DNA from: Glycomyces terrestris
GTDB taxonomy: Bacteria > Actinomycetota > Actinomycetes > Mycobacteriales > Micromonosporaceae
Assembly (NCBI RefSeq): GCF_003933745.1
Contig: NZ_RSEB01000002.1
Span: forward strand, 248,001 to 312,000
Direction: 5' to 3'
Length of the DNA: 64,000 bases
Both the position numbers and the translations under genes were made by a program. Shown piece by piece: positions 31,188 through 38,364 of the stretch; positions within the stretch are counted from its first letter, which is position 1; every line of letters starts with the position of its first letter. The notes below the pieces were generated by a model. It searched no databases. It was not told the DNA's origin and was given only the letters and a program-made list of their open reading frames with translations.

Positions 31188-31209
31188 GGTTGCGTGCGCG
31201 CACGCAACC
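31188..31209. promoter_or_regulatory. 22-bp perfect palindrome upstream of ftsY
   Basis: GGTTGCGTGCG at 31188-31198 is followed directly by its reverse complement (31199-31209), 51 bases before the ftsY start. It could be an operator or a hairpin in the leader. Confidence 0.6.
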
Positions 31210-31259
31210 GGGTGCCCGGTCGCGCTGGCGCGGTCGACCCATCGCTGGAGGACTTACCT

Positions 31260-32402
31260 GTGGACAACCTGTGGATCTGGGTGGTCGCCGCTGTCGTCGT
31301 CGCGGTCGCCGTCATCGTCGGCGTCGTGTTCGCCGTGCGCGGCCGATCGACGCCGCCCGTGGAGGCGCCCCCTGAGGAGCCGCAGGTCGAGGACGAGCCG
31401 CAGCCGGAGGCCCCGGAGACCGCGGCCGCGAAGGCCGCGCCCGCGGCCCCGGCGGTCGAGACGCCCGAGCCGGTCGCGGGCAGGCTGGTGCGGCTGCGGT
31501 CGCGCCTGGCCCGCTCGAACAACGCGCTCGGCAAGGGCCTGCTGGCGCTGCTGGCGAGCGACCGGCTCGACGACGACGTGTGGGACGAGGTCGAGGAGAC
31601 GCTGCTGACCGCCGACGTCGGCATGGCCGACACGACCGCGGTCGTGGAGCGCCTGCGCGAGCGGGTGAAGGTCCTCGGCACCCGGGACCCGGAGGAGCTG
31701 CGGGGCCTGCTCAAGTCCGAGCTCACCGCCGTCCTCGAACCGGACCTGGACCGCTCGATCGCGACCGCCTCTCCGTCCGGGGAGGGCCCGGCCGTGATCC
31801 TCATGGTCGGCGTGAACGGCTCGGGCAAGACCACCACGTGCGGCCGCGTGGCCCGGGTGCTCGTCGCCGAGGGCAAGAACGTCGTCATGGGCGCGGCCGA
31901 CACGTTCCGCGCCGCCGCGGCCGAGCAGCTGGAGACGTGGGGCGCCCGCGTGGGCGCGAAGGTCGTGCGCCGCGGGGAGGGCGCCGACCCGGCGTCGGTC
32001 GCGTTCGACGCGGTCAAGGCCGGCGCGGAGGACGGCGCGGACGTGGTGCTGGTCGACACCGCGGGCCGGCTCCAGAACAAGTCCGGGCTCATGGACGAGC
32101 TCGGGAAGGTCAAGCGGGTCATCGAGAAGCAGGGCCCGGTGGCCGAGACGCTGCTCGTGCTCGATGCGACGACGGGCCAGAACGGGCTCCAGCAGGCGAA
32201 GGTCTTCGGCGAGGTGGTGCAGGTGACCGGCATCGTGCTCACGAAGCTCGACGGCTCCGCGAAGGGCGGGATCGTGATCGCGGTTCAGCGGCAGTTGGGG
32301 GTACCGGTTAAGCTGGTCGGACTCGGCGAGGGCCCGGACGACCTGGCCCCGTTCGAGGTCGGAGCGTTCGTCGACGCCCTCGTCGACGGCACCGAGAGCT
32401 GA
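31260..32402 (+). CDS. ftsY: Signal recognition particle receptor FtsY
   Basis: A 380-residue SRP receptor GTPase. A membrane helix at about 5-25 (WIWVVAAVVVAVAVIVGVVF), an acidic Pro/Glu/Ala linker, a four-helix N domain (about 75-150) and a G domain with GVNGSGKTTTCGR (P-loop), AADTFRAAAAEQL, VLVDTAGR, LTKLDGSAKGG and GLGEGPDDL. GTG at 31260 follows GGAGG at 8 bases; a longer in-frame reading from 31194 starts inside the palindrome and lacks a binding site. It works with SRP to deliver membrane proteins. Confidence 0.95.
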   Translation: MDNLWIWVVAAVVVAVAVIVGVVFAVRGRSTPPVEAPPEEPQVEDEPQPEAPETAAAKAAPAAPAVETPEPVAGRLVRLRSRLARSNNALGKGLLALLASDRLDDDVWDEVEETLLTADVGMADTTAVVERLRERVKVLGTRDPEELRGLLKSELTAVLEPDLDRSIATASPSGEGPAVILMVGVNGSGKTTTCGRVARVLVAEGKNVVMGAADTFRAAAAEQLETWGARVGAKVVRRGEGADPASVAFDAVKAGAEDGADVVLVDTAGRLQNKSGLMDELGKVKRVIEKQGPVAETLLVLDATTGQNGLQQAKVFGEVVQVTGIVLTKLDGSAKGGIVIAVQRQLGVPVKLVGLGEGPDDLAPFEVGAFVDALVDGTES

Positions 32403-32432: not shown

Positions 32433-33221
32433 GTGAGCCAAGACGAGATTCCGCTGATCGGCGGCAACACGAGCACGGTCATCCGGCTGGGGGACACGGT
32501 CCGCCGGAACACCGGACCCTGGACCCCCGCGGTCCACGCGCTGCTCCGGCACCTGGACGGCGCCGGGTTCACGGGCGCGCCGCGGGTGCTCGGCATCGAC
32601 GAGCACGCGCGCGAGGTGCTGTCCTTTGTGGAGGGCGAGCCGGGCAAGTACCCGCTCGCGCCGCACTGGACCACCGACGAGACCATGAGTGCGGTCGCGA
32701 AGATGCTCCGCATGTACCACGACGCGCAGTACGGCTTCCGGCCGCCGCCGGGCGCGACCTGGCGGTCCTTCGGGCCGCCGCCGCCCGACACCGAGGTCAT
32801 CTGCCACCACGACGCCGCCCCGCACAACGTGGTGTGGCGTCCGGACGGCACGCTGTCGCTCATCGACTTCGACCTGGCGAGCCCGGGGGCGCGGATCTAC
32901 GACGTGGCGTACGCGGCCTGGACCTGGGTGCCGATCTTCACCGACCGGGACTCGATCACGCTGGGCTGGAAGAAGCCCGACCGGCCGCGGCGGCTGCGGA
33001 TGTTCGCCGACGCGTACGGGCTGTCCGACCGGGACCGCCAGCGCTTCATCAAGGTGATCCGCAAGCGGATCGTGGACCACATCGAGGGCATCCGCCGCAT
33101 GGCCCAGGCCGGCGACCCCGCGTTCGAGCGGATCGTGCAGAAGGGCCACCTGCGCCGCCCGGCGCGGGACCTGCGGCTGCTGGACGCGGAGCGGTACATC
33201 CTCGACGAGGCGCTCCGCTAG
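32433..33221 (+). CDS. APH-family phosphotransferase
   Basis: A 262-residue small-molecule kinase of the aminoglycoside phosphotransferase/choline-kinase fold. The catalytic loop CHHDAAPHNVVW (about 131-142), the metal motif LIDFDLASPGARIYDVAYA (about 149-167) and TVIRLGDTVRR in the N-lobe are clear. It lacks signs of specific resistance to a drug, and such genes are numerous in actinobacteria with mostly unknown substrates. GTG at 32433 is 30 bases after ftsY and may be cotranscribed. It ends before a 14-bp hairpin. Confidence 0.83.
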   Translation: MSQDEIPLIGGNTSTVIRLGDTVRRNTGPWTPAVHALLRHLDGAGFTGAPRVLGIDEHAREVLSFVEGEPGKYPLAPHWTTDETMSAVAKMLRMYHDAQYGFRPPPGATWRSFGPPPPDTEVICHHDAAPHNVVWRPDGTLSLIDFDLASPGARIYDVAYAAWTWVPIFTDRDSITLGWKKPDRPRRLRMFADAYGLSDRDRQRFIKVIRKRIVDHIEGIRRMAQAGDPAFERIVQKGHLRRPARDLRLLDAERYILDEALR

Positions 33222-33258
33222 GCCGCGACTCCGGTCGTGGCCGCTGCTCGGCTGCTGT

Positions 33259-33306
33259 TCGGGCGAAGACCCGCCGACGAGCCGGGAGCCGGGGGTCTTC
33301 GCCCGA
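33259..33306. terminator. 14-bp hairpin between the APH gene and the small RNA candidate
   Basis: TCGGGCGAAGACCC (33259-33272) pairs perfectly with 33293-33306 around a 20-base loop that can fold further. It lies 37 bases after the APH stop on the plus strand, and also at the end of the predicted minus-strand small RNA. Confidence 0.75.
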
Positions 33307-33411
33307 TGGAGCGCTCCCAAGATCGGGACGGCGGGCCCGTCGGAAATATCCGGGTGGGCCGCGCTGCCGCGGGGGAGTGCCGGGTCTGAGCGCGATGGAT
33401 TTGCGGGAATT
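33259..33411 (-). ncRNA. Candidate small non-coding RNA
   Basis: A strong minus-strand promoter at 33418-33446 would start a transcript near 33411, and the 14-bp hairpin at 33259-33306 would end it, giving about 150 bases. The transcript contains no ATG or GTG, several stable hairpins (for example GACGG/CCGTC) and two runs of five C. No gene of the minus strand lies downstream for it to serve; the next sequence is antisense to the APH gene. This is inference from signals alone. Confidence 0.5.
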
Positions 33412-33417
33412 GGAGCA

Positions 33418-33446
33418 AATCTACCCTGCGAGCGTTTGCCTGTCAA
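33418..33446 (-). promoter_or_regulatory. Strong orphan promoter on the minus strand
   Basis: Read on the minus strand: TTGACA (33446-33441), 17 bases, TAGATT (33423-33418), the best sigma-70-type match seen in the window. A second TTGACA lies upstream at 33464-33459, so CTGTCAATA appears twice (33440-33448, 33458-33466). Confidence 0.65.
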
Positions 33447-33541
33447 TACATCGTCAACTGTCAATATTAAGTGCCCGGGAGGTTACGCCCGGCCTCGGAC
33501 CGTGCTGCGTTGCCCCTGGGGCGCAACGAAAGACGGGCACC

Positions 33542-33564
33542 CCGGCCGCCTGCACCGCGGCCGG
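33542..33564 (-). terminator. Hairpin after the haloperoxidase gene
   Basis: CCGGCCGC (33542-33549) pairs with GCGGCCGG (33557-33564) around a 7-base loop, 29 bases beyond the minus-strand stop. A second CGTTGC/GCAACG hairpin follows near 33509-33528. The rest of 33307-33593 has no gene. Confidence 0.55.
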
Positions 33565-33593
33565 AGCGCCCGCCTCCTCGGGAGCGAAGCTGT

Positions 33594-34874
33594 TTACGCG
33601 AGGAGTTCGCCGGCGCGGCTGAGGACGTACGCCGCGACGTTCCGGCTCAGCTCCACGCCCGCGAGGTCGGCGGAGCGGGAGTGGATGCCGGACCAGACCC
33701 GGGCGTCGACGTTCTCCGTCGTGAGCGGGTGCCAGGTCGTGTACGTGCGGGTCACGCCGGGCGCGCTCGGGCTCGGGATCGTGAAGGCCGCGCCAGGACC
33801 GTCGCCCACGAGCTGGGTCAGCACCTCCTCGGCCGAGCCGGAGTAGGTGTTGTGGCCGCTGGGGTAGTCCGGGTGCGCCGGGGTGTTGTGGAGGGGCGTC
33901 CAGGACGGGTCCCGCACGGTGGCGGGGTCCCCGTCCTCGACGGCCCCCGCGATGGCGGTCACCGGGCGCCACCACAGGTAGGCGTACTTCGAGTCGGACG
34001 TGGCGATCTGGGTGTCGACCGCGGCGACGTGGAACAGCGCCACGAGCTCGACCTGGTCGCGCAGCGATCCGGTGTGGTGCTCCAGGGCGGCCCGGAGCAC
34101 GGGGTTGTAGAGCGTGAACGAGCTGCCGAGCCAGAACTGCGCGGTGTCGGTCTGCGCCTGGGTGCGCGCGGTGCTGTTCAGGCCGCCGTACACGTACACC
34201 TCGTCGAGGTCGGCGCGGTACTGCGGGGTGCCGATGGCCGGGGGCGGGTCGAGCCGGAACTGGTCGGCGCTGTCGAGCGCGAACGGCACGGCGAACCGGG
34301 TGCCGGCCTGCGCGGCGGGGGCGAACGCGGGCGGGGTCGGCTGCCACACGCCGGGCGCGGCGGCCGGCGGGGTCCACGCCGGGCTCACCGAGGCCGGGTC
34401 GAGGCCGTCGCCGGCGCGCTCGGCGAGCAGGCCGTCCGCGCGCTCGACGCCGGCGGTGACGCCCTTGCGCTTGGCGCGGCCGTCGGGGATCGCGCCGAGC
34501 GCGGACTCCAGGGCCGCGTCGAGGGCGGCCTGCTGCGTCGGCGCGAGCGCGGACAGGGCGCGGTGGACGGCGGCGGCGAGCGCGGCCTGGCGGTAGTGCT
34601 TCGTGTTGAGCCCGTGGGGGACCCGGCGCACGGCCCGCGCGGCGGCGAGCCAGGCGACGGCCCAGGTGCGGCTGTTGGTGACCTGCGTCGAGGCGGGCGC
34701 GGCGGTGACGGCCGCGTCGGTCGTGTCGAACCAGTCCAGCACGGCTTCACTTGCGCCCGAGGCGGTCTCAGCGGAGGCCGAGGACGCGGTCCCGACGGCG
34801 GCGCCCGCGGCGGCGACCGGTGCGGCGGCGAGCACGGCGCGGCGGGAGAGGGAGGTGCGGTTGGCGGGGGACAT
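33594..34874 (-). CDS. Tat-exported vanadium haloperoxidase/PAP2-superfamily protein
   Basis: A 426-residue exported protein. The N-terminus TSLSRRAVLAAAPVAAAGAA is a Tat signal with the twin arginines and a signal cleavage region near SASA. The all-helical body contains the superfamily motifs: KYAYLWWRPVTAI near 290, HPDYPSGHNTYSGSAEEVL (PSGH motif) near 328, and WSGIHSRSADLAG near 385, giving the Lys/Arg, Ser-Gly-His and His/Arg groups that hold vanadate or phosphate. ATG at 34874 follows AAGGAG. Halogenating peroxidase and acid phosphatase activities are both possible; sequence alone does not decide. Confidence 0.85.
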   Translation of the reverse strand: MSPANRTSLSRRAVLAAAPVAAAGAAVGTASSASAETASGASEAVLDWFDTTDAAVTAAPASTQVTNSRTWAVAWLAAARAVRRVPHGLNTKHYRQAALAAAVHRALSALAPTQQAALDAALESALGAIPDGRAKRKGVTAGVERADGLLAERAGDGLDPASVSPAWTPPAAAPGVWQPTPPAFAPAAQAGTRFAVPFALDSADQFRLDPPPAIGTPQYRADLDEVYVYGGLNSTARTQAQTDTAQFWLGSSFTLYNPVLRAALEHHTGSLRDQVELVALFHVAAVDTQIATSDSKYAYLWWRPVTAIAGAVEDGDPATVRDPSWTPLHNTPAHPDYPSGHNTYSGSAEEVLTQLVGDGPGAAFTIPSPSAPGVTRTYTTWHPLTTENVDARVWSGIHSRSADLAGVELSRNVAAYVLSRAGELLA

Positions 34875-35053
34875 GGGTCTCCTTGCGGTGCGGTGGAATC
34901 GAGGCGGGGAGCGGAGGACGCGGAACAAGTCCACTATGGAGTGTCGAGGGGCGTGGAGGCCCCGGAGGACGCGCCGTGCGGCGCAGGGGAGATGGGGACC
35001 GCCGGTCAGGCGTCGCAGGGGAGGAACGGCCTGTCGGACCGGCGGAGGTCGGG
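34875..35053 (-). promoter_or_regulatory. Long 5' leader of the haloperoxidase gene
   Basis: If transcription starts near 35128 as the -10 element suggests, the haloperoxidase message has a leader of about 250 bases, of which this is the part after the possible leader peptide. It is G+C-rich with no further gene; AAGGAG at 34878-34884 is the ribosome site. Confidence 0.35.
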
Positions 35054-35128
35054 TCAGCGACAGAGGGCGCTGGCGACGCGCATCTGGTCGACTTCGCGCC
35101 GCTGTGCGAGTGCGTTGGCGGGCTTCAT
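35054..35128 (-). CDS. Possible 24-residue leader peptide
   Basis: ATG at 35128 to TGA at 35056-35054 encodes MKPANALAQRREVDQMRVAS followed by ALCR. A TATCTT -10 (35140-35135) ends 6 bases before the ATG, so a leaderless start is expected. The peptide resembles nothing known to me. It could be a leader peptide for the haloperoxidase gene, a remnant of a longer regulator, or chance. Confidence 0.3.
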   Translation of the reverse strand: MKPANALAQRREVDQMRVASALCR

Positions 35129-35142
35129 GACTCGAAGATAGC

Positions 35143-35162
35143 AGTATTCCTATAGGAATACT
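35143..35162. promoter_or_regulatory. 20-bp perfect palindromic operator
   Basis: AGTATTCCTA is followed by its exact reverse complement TAGGAATACT. It lies between the expected -35 and the TATCTT -10 of the minus-strand promoter, the position of a repressor operator. Its A+T content stands out from the surroundings. Confidence 0.75.
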
Positions 35163-35237
35163 AGGGTTGATCACATGTCGTTCCGCCCCCGAAACCCGCC
35201 GGCAACGGGGACCGGTCCTCCCGGCTGTCCTCCCGAC

Positions 35238-36978: not shown

Positions 36979-38364
36979 TTAGATCGCCTCGCACGTGACC
37001 GTCGGCGCCGCCGCCGGCGCCGAGCCGATGAAGCCGAAGACCTCGCGGGACTGGCCCGCGGCGACCGTGCCGTTCCAGCCCACGTCGGTGGCCGTCACGC
37101 CCGCCCCCGAGGAGGTGACCGTCGCGTTCCACGACGACGTGATCCGGGTCGAACCCGCCCACGTCCAGGTGAGCCGCCAGCCGTCCAGGGCCGCGTCGGC
37201 GGCCGTGACGGTGACCTTGCCCTGCCAGCCCGAGCCCCAGTCGTTCACGACGCCGATGACGGCGGTGCAGTCGCCTTCGGTCGGGCCGCCCGTGGACGGG
37301 TCCTCGGTGGGCGAGGTCGTCGTCGGGTCCGGGTCCTCGCCGTAGACGGTGGCGCGCTCGGCGGTGTTCTGGATGCCGTACTGCGACTCGAACACCCGCT
37401 CGCCGTACGTCGTCATCCGGCTCGGGTCGAAACCCAGCACCTGGTCCAGGATCGGGTCGGAGTTGCCCGAGTACGACCAGGCGATCCAGCCGATCCCGCG
37501 CGCCTGCGCCTCCGACTGGATGGTCTCCCAGGCCACGGTCGAGCCCTGGTGGGTGTCCGCGTACTCGCCGACGATGAGCGGCAGGTCCATCGCCGCGAAG
37601 GCGTCGAAGTAGTCGATCACCGCCTGCGGGCTCGAGTACACCTGGTACATGTGCACCGAGAACAGCGTGTTCCCGAGCGGGTCGGCCGCGGCCACCGTGG
37701 GCGCGTTGGCGCGCATGGTGTTGGTCCAGTCCTGGCCCCAGTTCGGGGCGTCCACGACGAGCGTGTGCTCGAACCCGATGTCGCGCATGCGGTCGACCGC
37801 GTTCACGGTCGCCTGCGTCCACTGCCCCGGGTCGGTGTTGCCGATCGGCTCGTTGCCGATGTTGATGAGGACGTACGCCTCCTCGCCTTCGAGCACGCTG
37901 TACAGGCCCTGCCAGAACGTCACGGCCTGATCCAGGGAGGCCGCGCCCGCCTCCTCGCCGTAGCCGGTCGTGTCGTGGACCTCGAGGACGCAGATGAGCC
38001 GCTGCGCCTTGCACTCGTCGACGATCTGCTGCACCCGCGCGGCGGACGAGACGCCCCAGTTGCGGTGGCCCGAGCCCAGGACGACGCGGACCGTGTTGGC
38101 CCCGAGGTCGCTGATCTCGCCGAGGCTGTCGAACTCACCCTGGTACCAGACGTCCGGGTGGGTGGAGCCGCGCATGATGAACGGGTTGCCGTTCGCGTCG
38201 ATCAGCTGCGTGCCGTCGATCGAGAAGCCGCCCTGCTGGGCGCTGGCCGGTACCAGCTGCCACATGCCGGTGACGGCGATGGCCAGGACGGCCGCGGCCG
38301 CCGCCAGCCACGATCGCCTCCTTCGACGCCGTGCCGGGGCGGCGTCGGTGGTGCCGTGTTCCAT
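36979..38364 (-). CDS. Secreted endo-beta-1,4-mannanase (GH5_8-like) with CBM2
   Basis: A 461-residue exported enzyme: Arg-rich start, signal helix at about 18-42 ending ASA, GH5 barrel (about 46-340), Thr/Pro linker and a C-terminal CBM2 (about 365-461, WQGKVTVTAADAALDGWRLTWTW). HPDVWYQGEF, LGANTVRVVL, CVLEVHDTTGYGE and SLDQAVTFWQGLYSVLEGEE are typical of subfamily 8 mannanases. Glu172 in NIGNEPIGN is the acid/base and Glu267 in VGEYADTH the nucleophile. ATG at 38364. A LacI-type operator lies 30 bases upstream. Works with the GH2 beta-mannosidase at 39957. Confidence 0.88.
   Translation of the reverse strand: MEHGTTDAAPARRRRRRSWLAAAAAVLAIAVTGMWQLVPASAQQGGFSIDGTQLIDANGNPFIMRGSTHPDVWYQGEFDSLGEISDLGANTVRVVLGSGHRNWGVSSAARVQQIVDECKAQRLICVLEVHDTTGYGEEAGAASLDQAVTFWQGLYSVLEGEEAYVLINIGNEPIGNTDPGQWTQATVNAVDRMRDIGFEHTLVVDAPNWGQDWTNTMRANAPTVAAADPLGNTLFSVHMYQVYSSPQAVIDYFDAFAAMDLPLIVGEYADTHQGSTVAWETIQSEAQARGIGWIAWSYSGNSDPILDQVLGFDPSRMTTYGERVFESQYGIQNTAERATVYGEDPDPTTTSPTEDPSTGGPTEGDCTAVIGVVNDWGSGWQGKVTVTAADAALDGWRLTWTWAGSTRITSSWNATVTSSGAGVTATDVGWNGTVAAGQSREVFGFIGSAPAAAPTVTCEAI

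Follow-up and report, generated by a model that had tools for sequence, protein, structure and literature searches.

6C RNA consists of a pair of hairpins, each with at least six C residues in its loop, and 6S and Ms1 RNAs are recognized by a closing stem of the 5′ and 3′ ends with a central bubble. The RsaE/RoxS-type sRNAs of Firmicutes expose UCCC motifs, and sRNAs such as Spot 42 and SgrS are controlled by the sugar state of the cell. According to the available text of PMC9569102, 6C RNA is said to bind several mRNAs through its C-rich loops (Mai et al., 2019, cited therein). The available text of PMC9130861 implies that Ms1 went undetected in Glycomycetales in a synteny search, where it may have been missed. 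The operator of the cellobiose-type repressor CebR has the consensus TGGGAGCGCTCCCA (PMC5332605).

The locus described here lies in a 64-kb window, the whole stretch of DNA that was analysed, of a Glycomyces genome. Like 6C RNA (RF01066; B11 in mycobacteria), the RNA predicted from it is a small actinobacterial RNA with a C-rich hairpin loop, but it has one conserved hairpin, matches no Rfam covariance model, occurs in one genus and carries a CebR-type box. UCCC motifs liken it to RsaE/RoxS by analogy and not by sequence comparison, the phylum being different; its presumed sugar-state control recalls Spot 42 and SgrS, likewise by analogy, with unrelated regulator, sequence and host. With the CebR/CelR regulon of Streptomyces and other actinobacteria it shares the operator TGGGAGCGCTCCCA and a LacI-family regulator located beside GH48 and sugar ABC transporter genes. 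Here, however, the box is inside a predicted sRNA gene, whereas the regulon table in the available part of PMC5332605 lists protein genes.

Organization of the locus

The features of the locus are the following (window coordinates):

31194–32402, plus strand: ftsY, named by resemblance and not by family search; synteny anchor in 22/22 genus genomes
32433–33221, plus strand: APH-like phosphotransferase gene (Pfam APH), converging on the sRNA gene; neighbour in 22/22 genus genomes
33255–33410, minus strand: predicted sRNA of about 156 nt, with its start placed 7 nt past the -10 box and its end placed at the hairpin
33259–33306, minus strand: 3′ hairpin, 14-bp stem and 5-bp inner helix with one bulge
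33279–33287, minus strand: apical loop UCCCGGCUC, nine bases, the same in 18/22 genomes and one base off in 4/22
33306–33319, minus strand: TGGGAGCGCTCCAT, CebR/CelR-type operator match lying within the predicted transcript; its first 11 bases do not vary in 22/22
33391–33410, minus strand: conserved 5′ end; UCCC starts at nt 2–4 of the predicted transcript in 22/22
33418–33423, minus strand: -10 hexamer TAGATT; TA...T in 22/22 genus genomes
33427–33440, minus strand: promoter spacer GGCAAACGCTCGCA, conserved; possible imperfect second CebR-type box, 9/14 here
33441–33446, minus strand: -35 hexamer TTGACA; TTGAC[AG] separated by 17 nt from TA...T in 22/22 genus genomes
33459–33464, minus strand: second TTGACA, 18 bp upstream of the first; surrounding block 0.63 identical
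33531–33575, minus strand: hairpin between the ORF below and the sRNA promoter, 19-nt arms, 84% complementary
33594–35174, minus strand: ORF of 526 aa, upstream of the sRNA promoter

The gene order is thus ftsY, the APH-like gene, the sRNA gene and the minus-strand ORF 33594–35174. The product of this ORF, which we take to resemble a vanadium-dependent haloperoxidase, has no Pfam or NCBIfam match. The ORF is found beside the sRNA gene in 11 of 19 fetched loci, and the RNA is there with or without it. The hairpin at 33531–33575 is probably its terminator.

The promoter TTGACA-17-TAGATT (33446–33418, minus strand) has 10 of 12 matches and is the only 10-of-12 site in the window, which bears out its designation in the preliminary description as the best sigma-70-like promoter there; promoter-like sites in the whole window number four, against about 1.2 expected from shuffles. 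The duplication of the upstream TTGACA, also pointed out in that description, corresponds to a repeat at 33440–33448 and 33458–33466. In some genomes, GTTTGCC...GGCAAAC-like inverted half-sites were seen by eye around the -35 box (window 33427–33465, minus strand); they are possibly a further regulator site.

The predicted transcript of 156 nt (33410–33255) contains neither ATG nor GTG, as first described for a transcript of roughly 150 bases; this is not general, both being missing in 3 of the 22 homologues. Its predicted length varies from 137 to 201 nt across the 22 genomes, and a coding gene is unlikely because the lengths do not differ in steps of three and no start codon is common to the 22 genomes. 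The gene-free stretch was correctly described as closing with a 14-bp hairpin: the arms 33259–33272 and 33293–33306 are complementary at 14 of 14 positions, with 20 nt in between, and form the perfect stem of the hairpin at 33259–33306. The terminator scan of the window does not list this hairpin, which has a long loop and no T-run, so that termination there is presumed. In folding, a 162-nt stretch covering the predicted RNA outperforms 200 of 200 shuffles (z = -3.3).

Comparison with known RNA families

At the gathering score, Rfam models found nothing on this RNA in the window. A search of 33150–33650 up to E 10 produced nothing overlapping 33255–33410; its matches at 33503–33589 (E 0.38–1) coincide with the hairpin that follows the upstream ORF. 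Searches of the genome for 6C (E ≤ 0.001) and 6S were empty, both being weak tests, with the control found in 1 of 14 and 5 of 14 cases, respectively. In structure, one conserved hairpin, with the loop UCCCGGCUC, takes the place of the two hairpins of 6C RNA, and an end stem of 3–5 bp appears in 4 of 19 MFE folds (L018, L019, L021, and L022) and is not conserved, unlike the closing stem of 6S and Ms1.

This RNA is outside 6C, 6S and every Rfam family tested. The likeness to 6C drawn in the preliminary description, which made no claim of identity, holds only as an analogy, neither 6C nor any other Rfam family giving a match. A diverged 6C, 6S or Ms1 RNA would fit the C-rich loop and the strong promoter, and the apparent non-detection of Ms1 in Glycomycetales implied by the available text of PMC9130861 leaves room for a replacement. 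Nevertheless, the lack of an Rfam match on this RNA, the empty, if weak, genome searches for 6C and 6S and the presence of a short end-closing stem in only four folds make such an origin extremely improbable.

Conservation and distribution

The promoter, the 11-mer TGGGAGCGCTC and the 3′ hairpin with its loop were found in 22 of 22 Glycomyces genomes. A DNA search of 101 genomes, comprising the window's own and those of relatives, recovered 19 loci of the same genus, including that of the window, with the APH-like gene adjoining; the last three genus genomes (G003, G009, and G020) were added via covariance-model and protein searches. Mean pairwise identity over the 22 genomes is 0.98 for the -35 box, 0.78 for the spacer and 0.81 for the -10 box. 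Within the RNA it is 0.75 for the first 20 nt, 0.30 for the middle, 1.00 for the CebR-type box, 0.88 for the loop block and 0.52 for the outer 3′ stem, compared with 0.33 far upstream. The promoter, the 5′ end, TGGGAGCGCTC and the loop are kept in all 22 genomes while the intervening stretch is not, a pattern that supports the original reading of the locus as a small-RNA gene. Conservation of promoter and hairpin in relatives, proposed at that time as a check, came out favourably in all the genus genomes.

Outside the genus, 24 genomes from other genera of the family were considered, of which one gave no match and one gave a locus that is not syntenic (L113, the 23rd). At the 22 equivalent loci compared (L091–L112), neither such a promoter nor CCCGGCTC within 500 bp was found in any, and a lone GGGAGC or GCTCCC occurs in four. 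A two-part exact pattern, which would miss diverged forms, was found in 21 stretches among the genome contigs of 84,980 species: 19 are named Glycomyces, one comes from a MAG in which ftsY and the APH-like gene again adjoin, and one is a Nocardioides coding sequence. The latter was rejected as a homologue, since it falls within a 374-aa ORF.

The covariance model R1, run on 300 genomes of the family at E ≤ 0.1, gave 29 matches, 20 in the genus and nine in other genera, at one place per genome; the match in G015 was misplaced (true locus L028), and G003 and G009 were missed. The nine matches in other genera were dismissed as homologues, their alignments looking by eye like chance or ordinary hairpins, and the stretches fetched around them yielded no APH-like gene. 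The element is a candidate small-RNA gene of Glycomyces on the minus strand, genus-specific and standing alone.

Sequence evidence for a probable RNA

In an alignment of 19 hairpins, 88.2% of cells pair and two-sided change is seen in 7 of 17 pairs. The covariation score was reached by none of 500 shuffles, a test in which relatedness alone can beat the shuffles, and it is also above every slid version, although in this slid-pair control a shift of +3 gives more pair types (17 vs. 16) and a shift of -1 an equal number of two-sided pairs (7). The signal is weaker across the nine close sequences. The 22 hairpins together contain 47 G-U pairs when read on the minus strand but 17 on the plus strand, and the minus-strand hairpin is the more stable in 21 of 22 genomes, the exception being G002. 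When arms are swapped between the two clades, the mean of -33.8 kcal/mol weakens to -20.6 and -26.7 (a cost of 7–13), and swapping within clades loses 2–4 kcal/mol; there, the true partner is the single best one in only 6 of the 22 rows and in 4 of the 22 columns. The stem differs between clades with pairing kept, around the almost fixed loop UCCCGGCUC. One hairpin, that of G009 (L089), has a G-C in place of the inner G-U pair and the loop UCCCGGCUU.

The clade-differing paired stem, the fixed loop and the strand bias together point to RNA. They speak against a DNA-only control region or a repressor decoy without a functional RNA, in which the promoter and the operator alone would account for two conserved blocks; we consider this very unlikely. 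Somewhat less improbable, but still quite unlikely, is a cis-antisense RNA or bidirectional terminator, with the 3′ end of the converging APH-like mRNA as the sole object of the RNA and the hairpin ending both transcripts. The APH-like gene does adjoin in all 22 genomes, and the nominal hairpin end is at most 9 nt from the end of this gene (stop codon included) in G003, G010 and G019 and reaches the gene in G021. However, termination would not require a loop of nine fixed bases, the APH-like stop codon lies at no set distance (up to about 200 nt in G015), the minus strand is favoured by both wobble pairs and stability, and the RNA would end before the APH-like gene unless read-through occurs.

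The CebR/CelR-type box and its regulator

The operator match at 33306–33319 was not reported in the preliminary description. The invariant 11-mer TGGGAGCGCTC forms the central part of the operator TGGGAGCGCTCCCA of CebR/CelR, and the sRNA box agrees with the operator at 11–13 of 14 positions in 22 of 22 genomes. The sRNA gene holds the sole site within two mismatches in the window, which alone is not significant, as 46 of 100 shuffles have one. In the genome of the window, TGGGAGCGCTC occurs 10 times and its reversed control five times, a number that matches half of the ten sites. Of the nine other sites, four front genes for LPMO + CBM2, CBM2 + GDSL, GH48 + CBM2 and GH10 + CBM2 proteins (the GH10 start being taken from the G018 counterpart), one, an uncertain case, precedes a Sortilin-Vps10-type ORF by 385 bp, and four appear to be intragenic. 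Near-perfect 14-mers with one mismatch are present in the same genome at three places: at the start of an LPMO gene other than the TGGGAGCGCTC-fronted one, before CBM2-GDSL and inside a DoxX ORF.

The 12-mer TGGGAGCGCTCC occurs 16 times in G003, G012 and G018, against none for the controls, and three of these occurrences are this RNA. Among the other 13 sites, eight front genes, assigned by likely start codons, for LPMO (3), GH10 (1), CBM2 (2), a sugar-binding protein (1) and a ricin-lectin (1); the remaining five lie within a gene or behind one, or are unassigned. One LPMO orthologue carries TTGGGAGCGCTCCA in all four genomes examined, and its asymmetric form is shared by this RNA, which has TGGGAGCGCTCCA in 18 of 22 genomes. 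Asymmetry of the box was therefore not kept as an argument against its being an operator, since the boxes of an LPMO gene are asymmetric in the same way. At both GH10 loci, TTGACC, 17–18 nt and TA[GC]GCT were seen by eye directly before the box; a stricter promoter pattern listed none at these loci or at the LPMO genes.

A LacI-family regulator is present in all 22 genomes at 84–100% identity, with its DNA-binding stretch 94.5–100% identical, and in the genome of the window it adjoins a GH48 and sugar-ABC cluster. Its likeness to CebR comes from context and motif, and no NCBIfam model names it CebR; a CebR-like regulator and box sites at cellulolytic genes are both found. In L150 (G000:C14:121000-140000), the genes of the regulator (G000:C14:125790-126863), an ABC permease, a sugar-binding lipoprotein and a GH48+CBM2 cellulase are clustered; this locus also has a pair of imperfect CebR-type boxes, close to 11228 and 11296. 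The window itself encodes a GH5 cellulase with CBM2 (36979–38364, minus strand) about 3.5 kb from the sRNA promoter, and no CebR box within two mismatches was found at this gene.

The identity of the motif, the genes that it fronts elsewhere and the presence of the regulator suggest repressor control, and the sRNA gene probably belongs to the CebR regulon. The box is 52–101 nt downstream of the predicted start in the 22 genomes, which is unusual for a simple repressor site. The second box in the promoter spacer scores 7–11 of 14 and at least 9 in 16 of the 22 genomes, always at the same offset; random stretches score 9/14 in 10% and 10/14 in 2.4% of cases. DNA looping by phased operators was rejected, the spacer box and the main box being without helical phasing (R = 0.17). 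G020 (locus L088) has an additional GGGAGCGCTCC upstream of the sRNA promoter.

Alternatively, in a real sRNA, TGGGAGCGCTC could serve not as an operator but as an RNA element whose partner is the 5′ segment GGCGCUCCC or the loop GCUCCC. RNAalifold does pair GGGAGC with the loop GCUCCC, with A-U kept in 17 of 19, and pairing of the box with the 5′ segment is better than shuffles (p<0.05) in eight of 22 genomes, but it is not significant in the other 14. Covariation was found for neither partner, and none of the 11 pairs predicted by RNAalifold shows two-sided change. Moreover, any palindrome has half-sites that can pair without further cause, and in these genomes cellulolytic genes are fronted by the same 11- to 12-mer. 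This explanation is unlikely, if the strongest of the competing ones.

No report of a CebR-controlled sRNA was found among the titles and abstract openings of the literature on CebR and small RNA or sRNA; PMC12772271, in its available text, names CebR and sRNA solely within its reference list. The literature found on small RNA in Glycomyces concerns Ms1.

Proposed mode of action

At the sequence level, the element has the attributes of a trans-acting sRNA: its own promoter, a predicted noncoding transcript and its own 3′ hairpin. The best reading, with about an even chance of being correct, is a genus-specific base-pairing sRNA under a cellobiose-type (CebR/CelR-like) repressor. RNA polymerase with the housekeeping sigma factor would start near 33410 on the minus strand, as judged from the promoter. 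About 90 bp further downstream, TGGGAGCGCTCCAT would be bound by a CebR/CelR-type repressor of the LacI family, which may occupy the promoter spacer as well and would block transcription until released by cello-oligosaccharides. The RNA would end at or just past the 3′ hairpin. The UCCC-bearing 5′ end is a candidate pairing seed and, together with the apical loop, could pair in trans with G-rich mRNA stretches such as ribosome-binding sites; this role is suggested by the conservation of those parts. The RNA may work like a C-rich-loop base-pairing sRNA. A search for targets with GAGCCGGGAG-N2-9-ATG in five genomes gave 22 matches, most of them by eye inside coding sequence, vs. 18 for the control, and no convincing target.

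A more speculative proposal, which is possible but rather doubtful, gives the cellobiose response an RNA arm in the form of this sRNA. CebR, as repressor of cellulases and LPMOs, would also repress the sRNA; cello-oligosaccharides would release a burst of RNA, and the UCCC seeds would stop translation of genes unwanted on cellulose, in a manner like that of Spot 42 but in an actinobacterium.

Significance

The locus provides a well-conserved candidate RNA gene without an Rfam match, as searched, in an order for which the available text of PMC9130861 implies that Ms1 was not detected. Control of this sRNA by CebR would add an RNA component to the actinobacterial cellulose-utilisation regulon, and plant-fibre feeding may be linked to RNA-based gene control in a soil actinobacterium.
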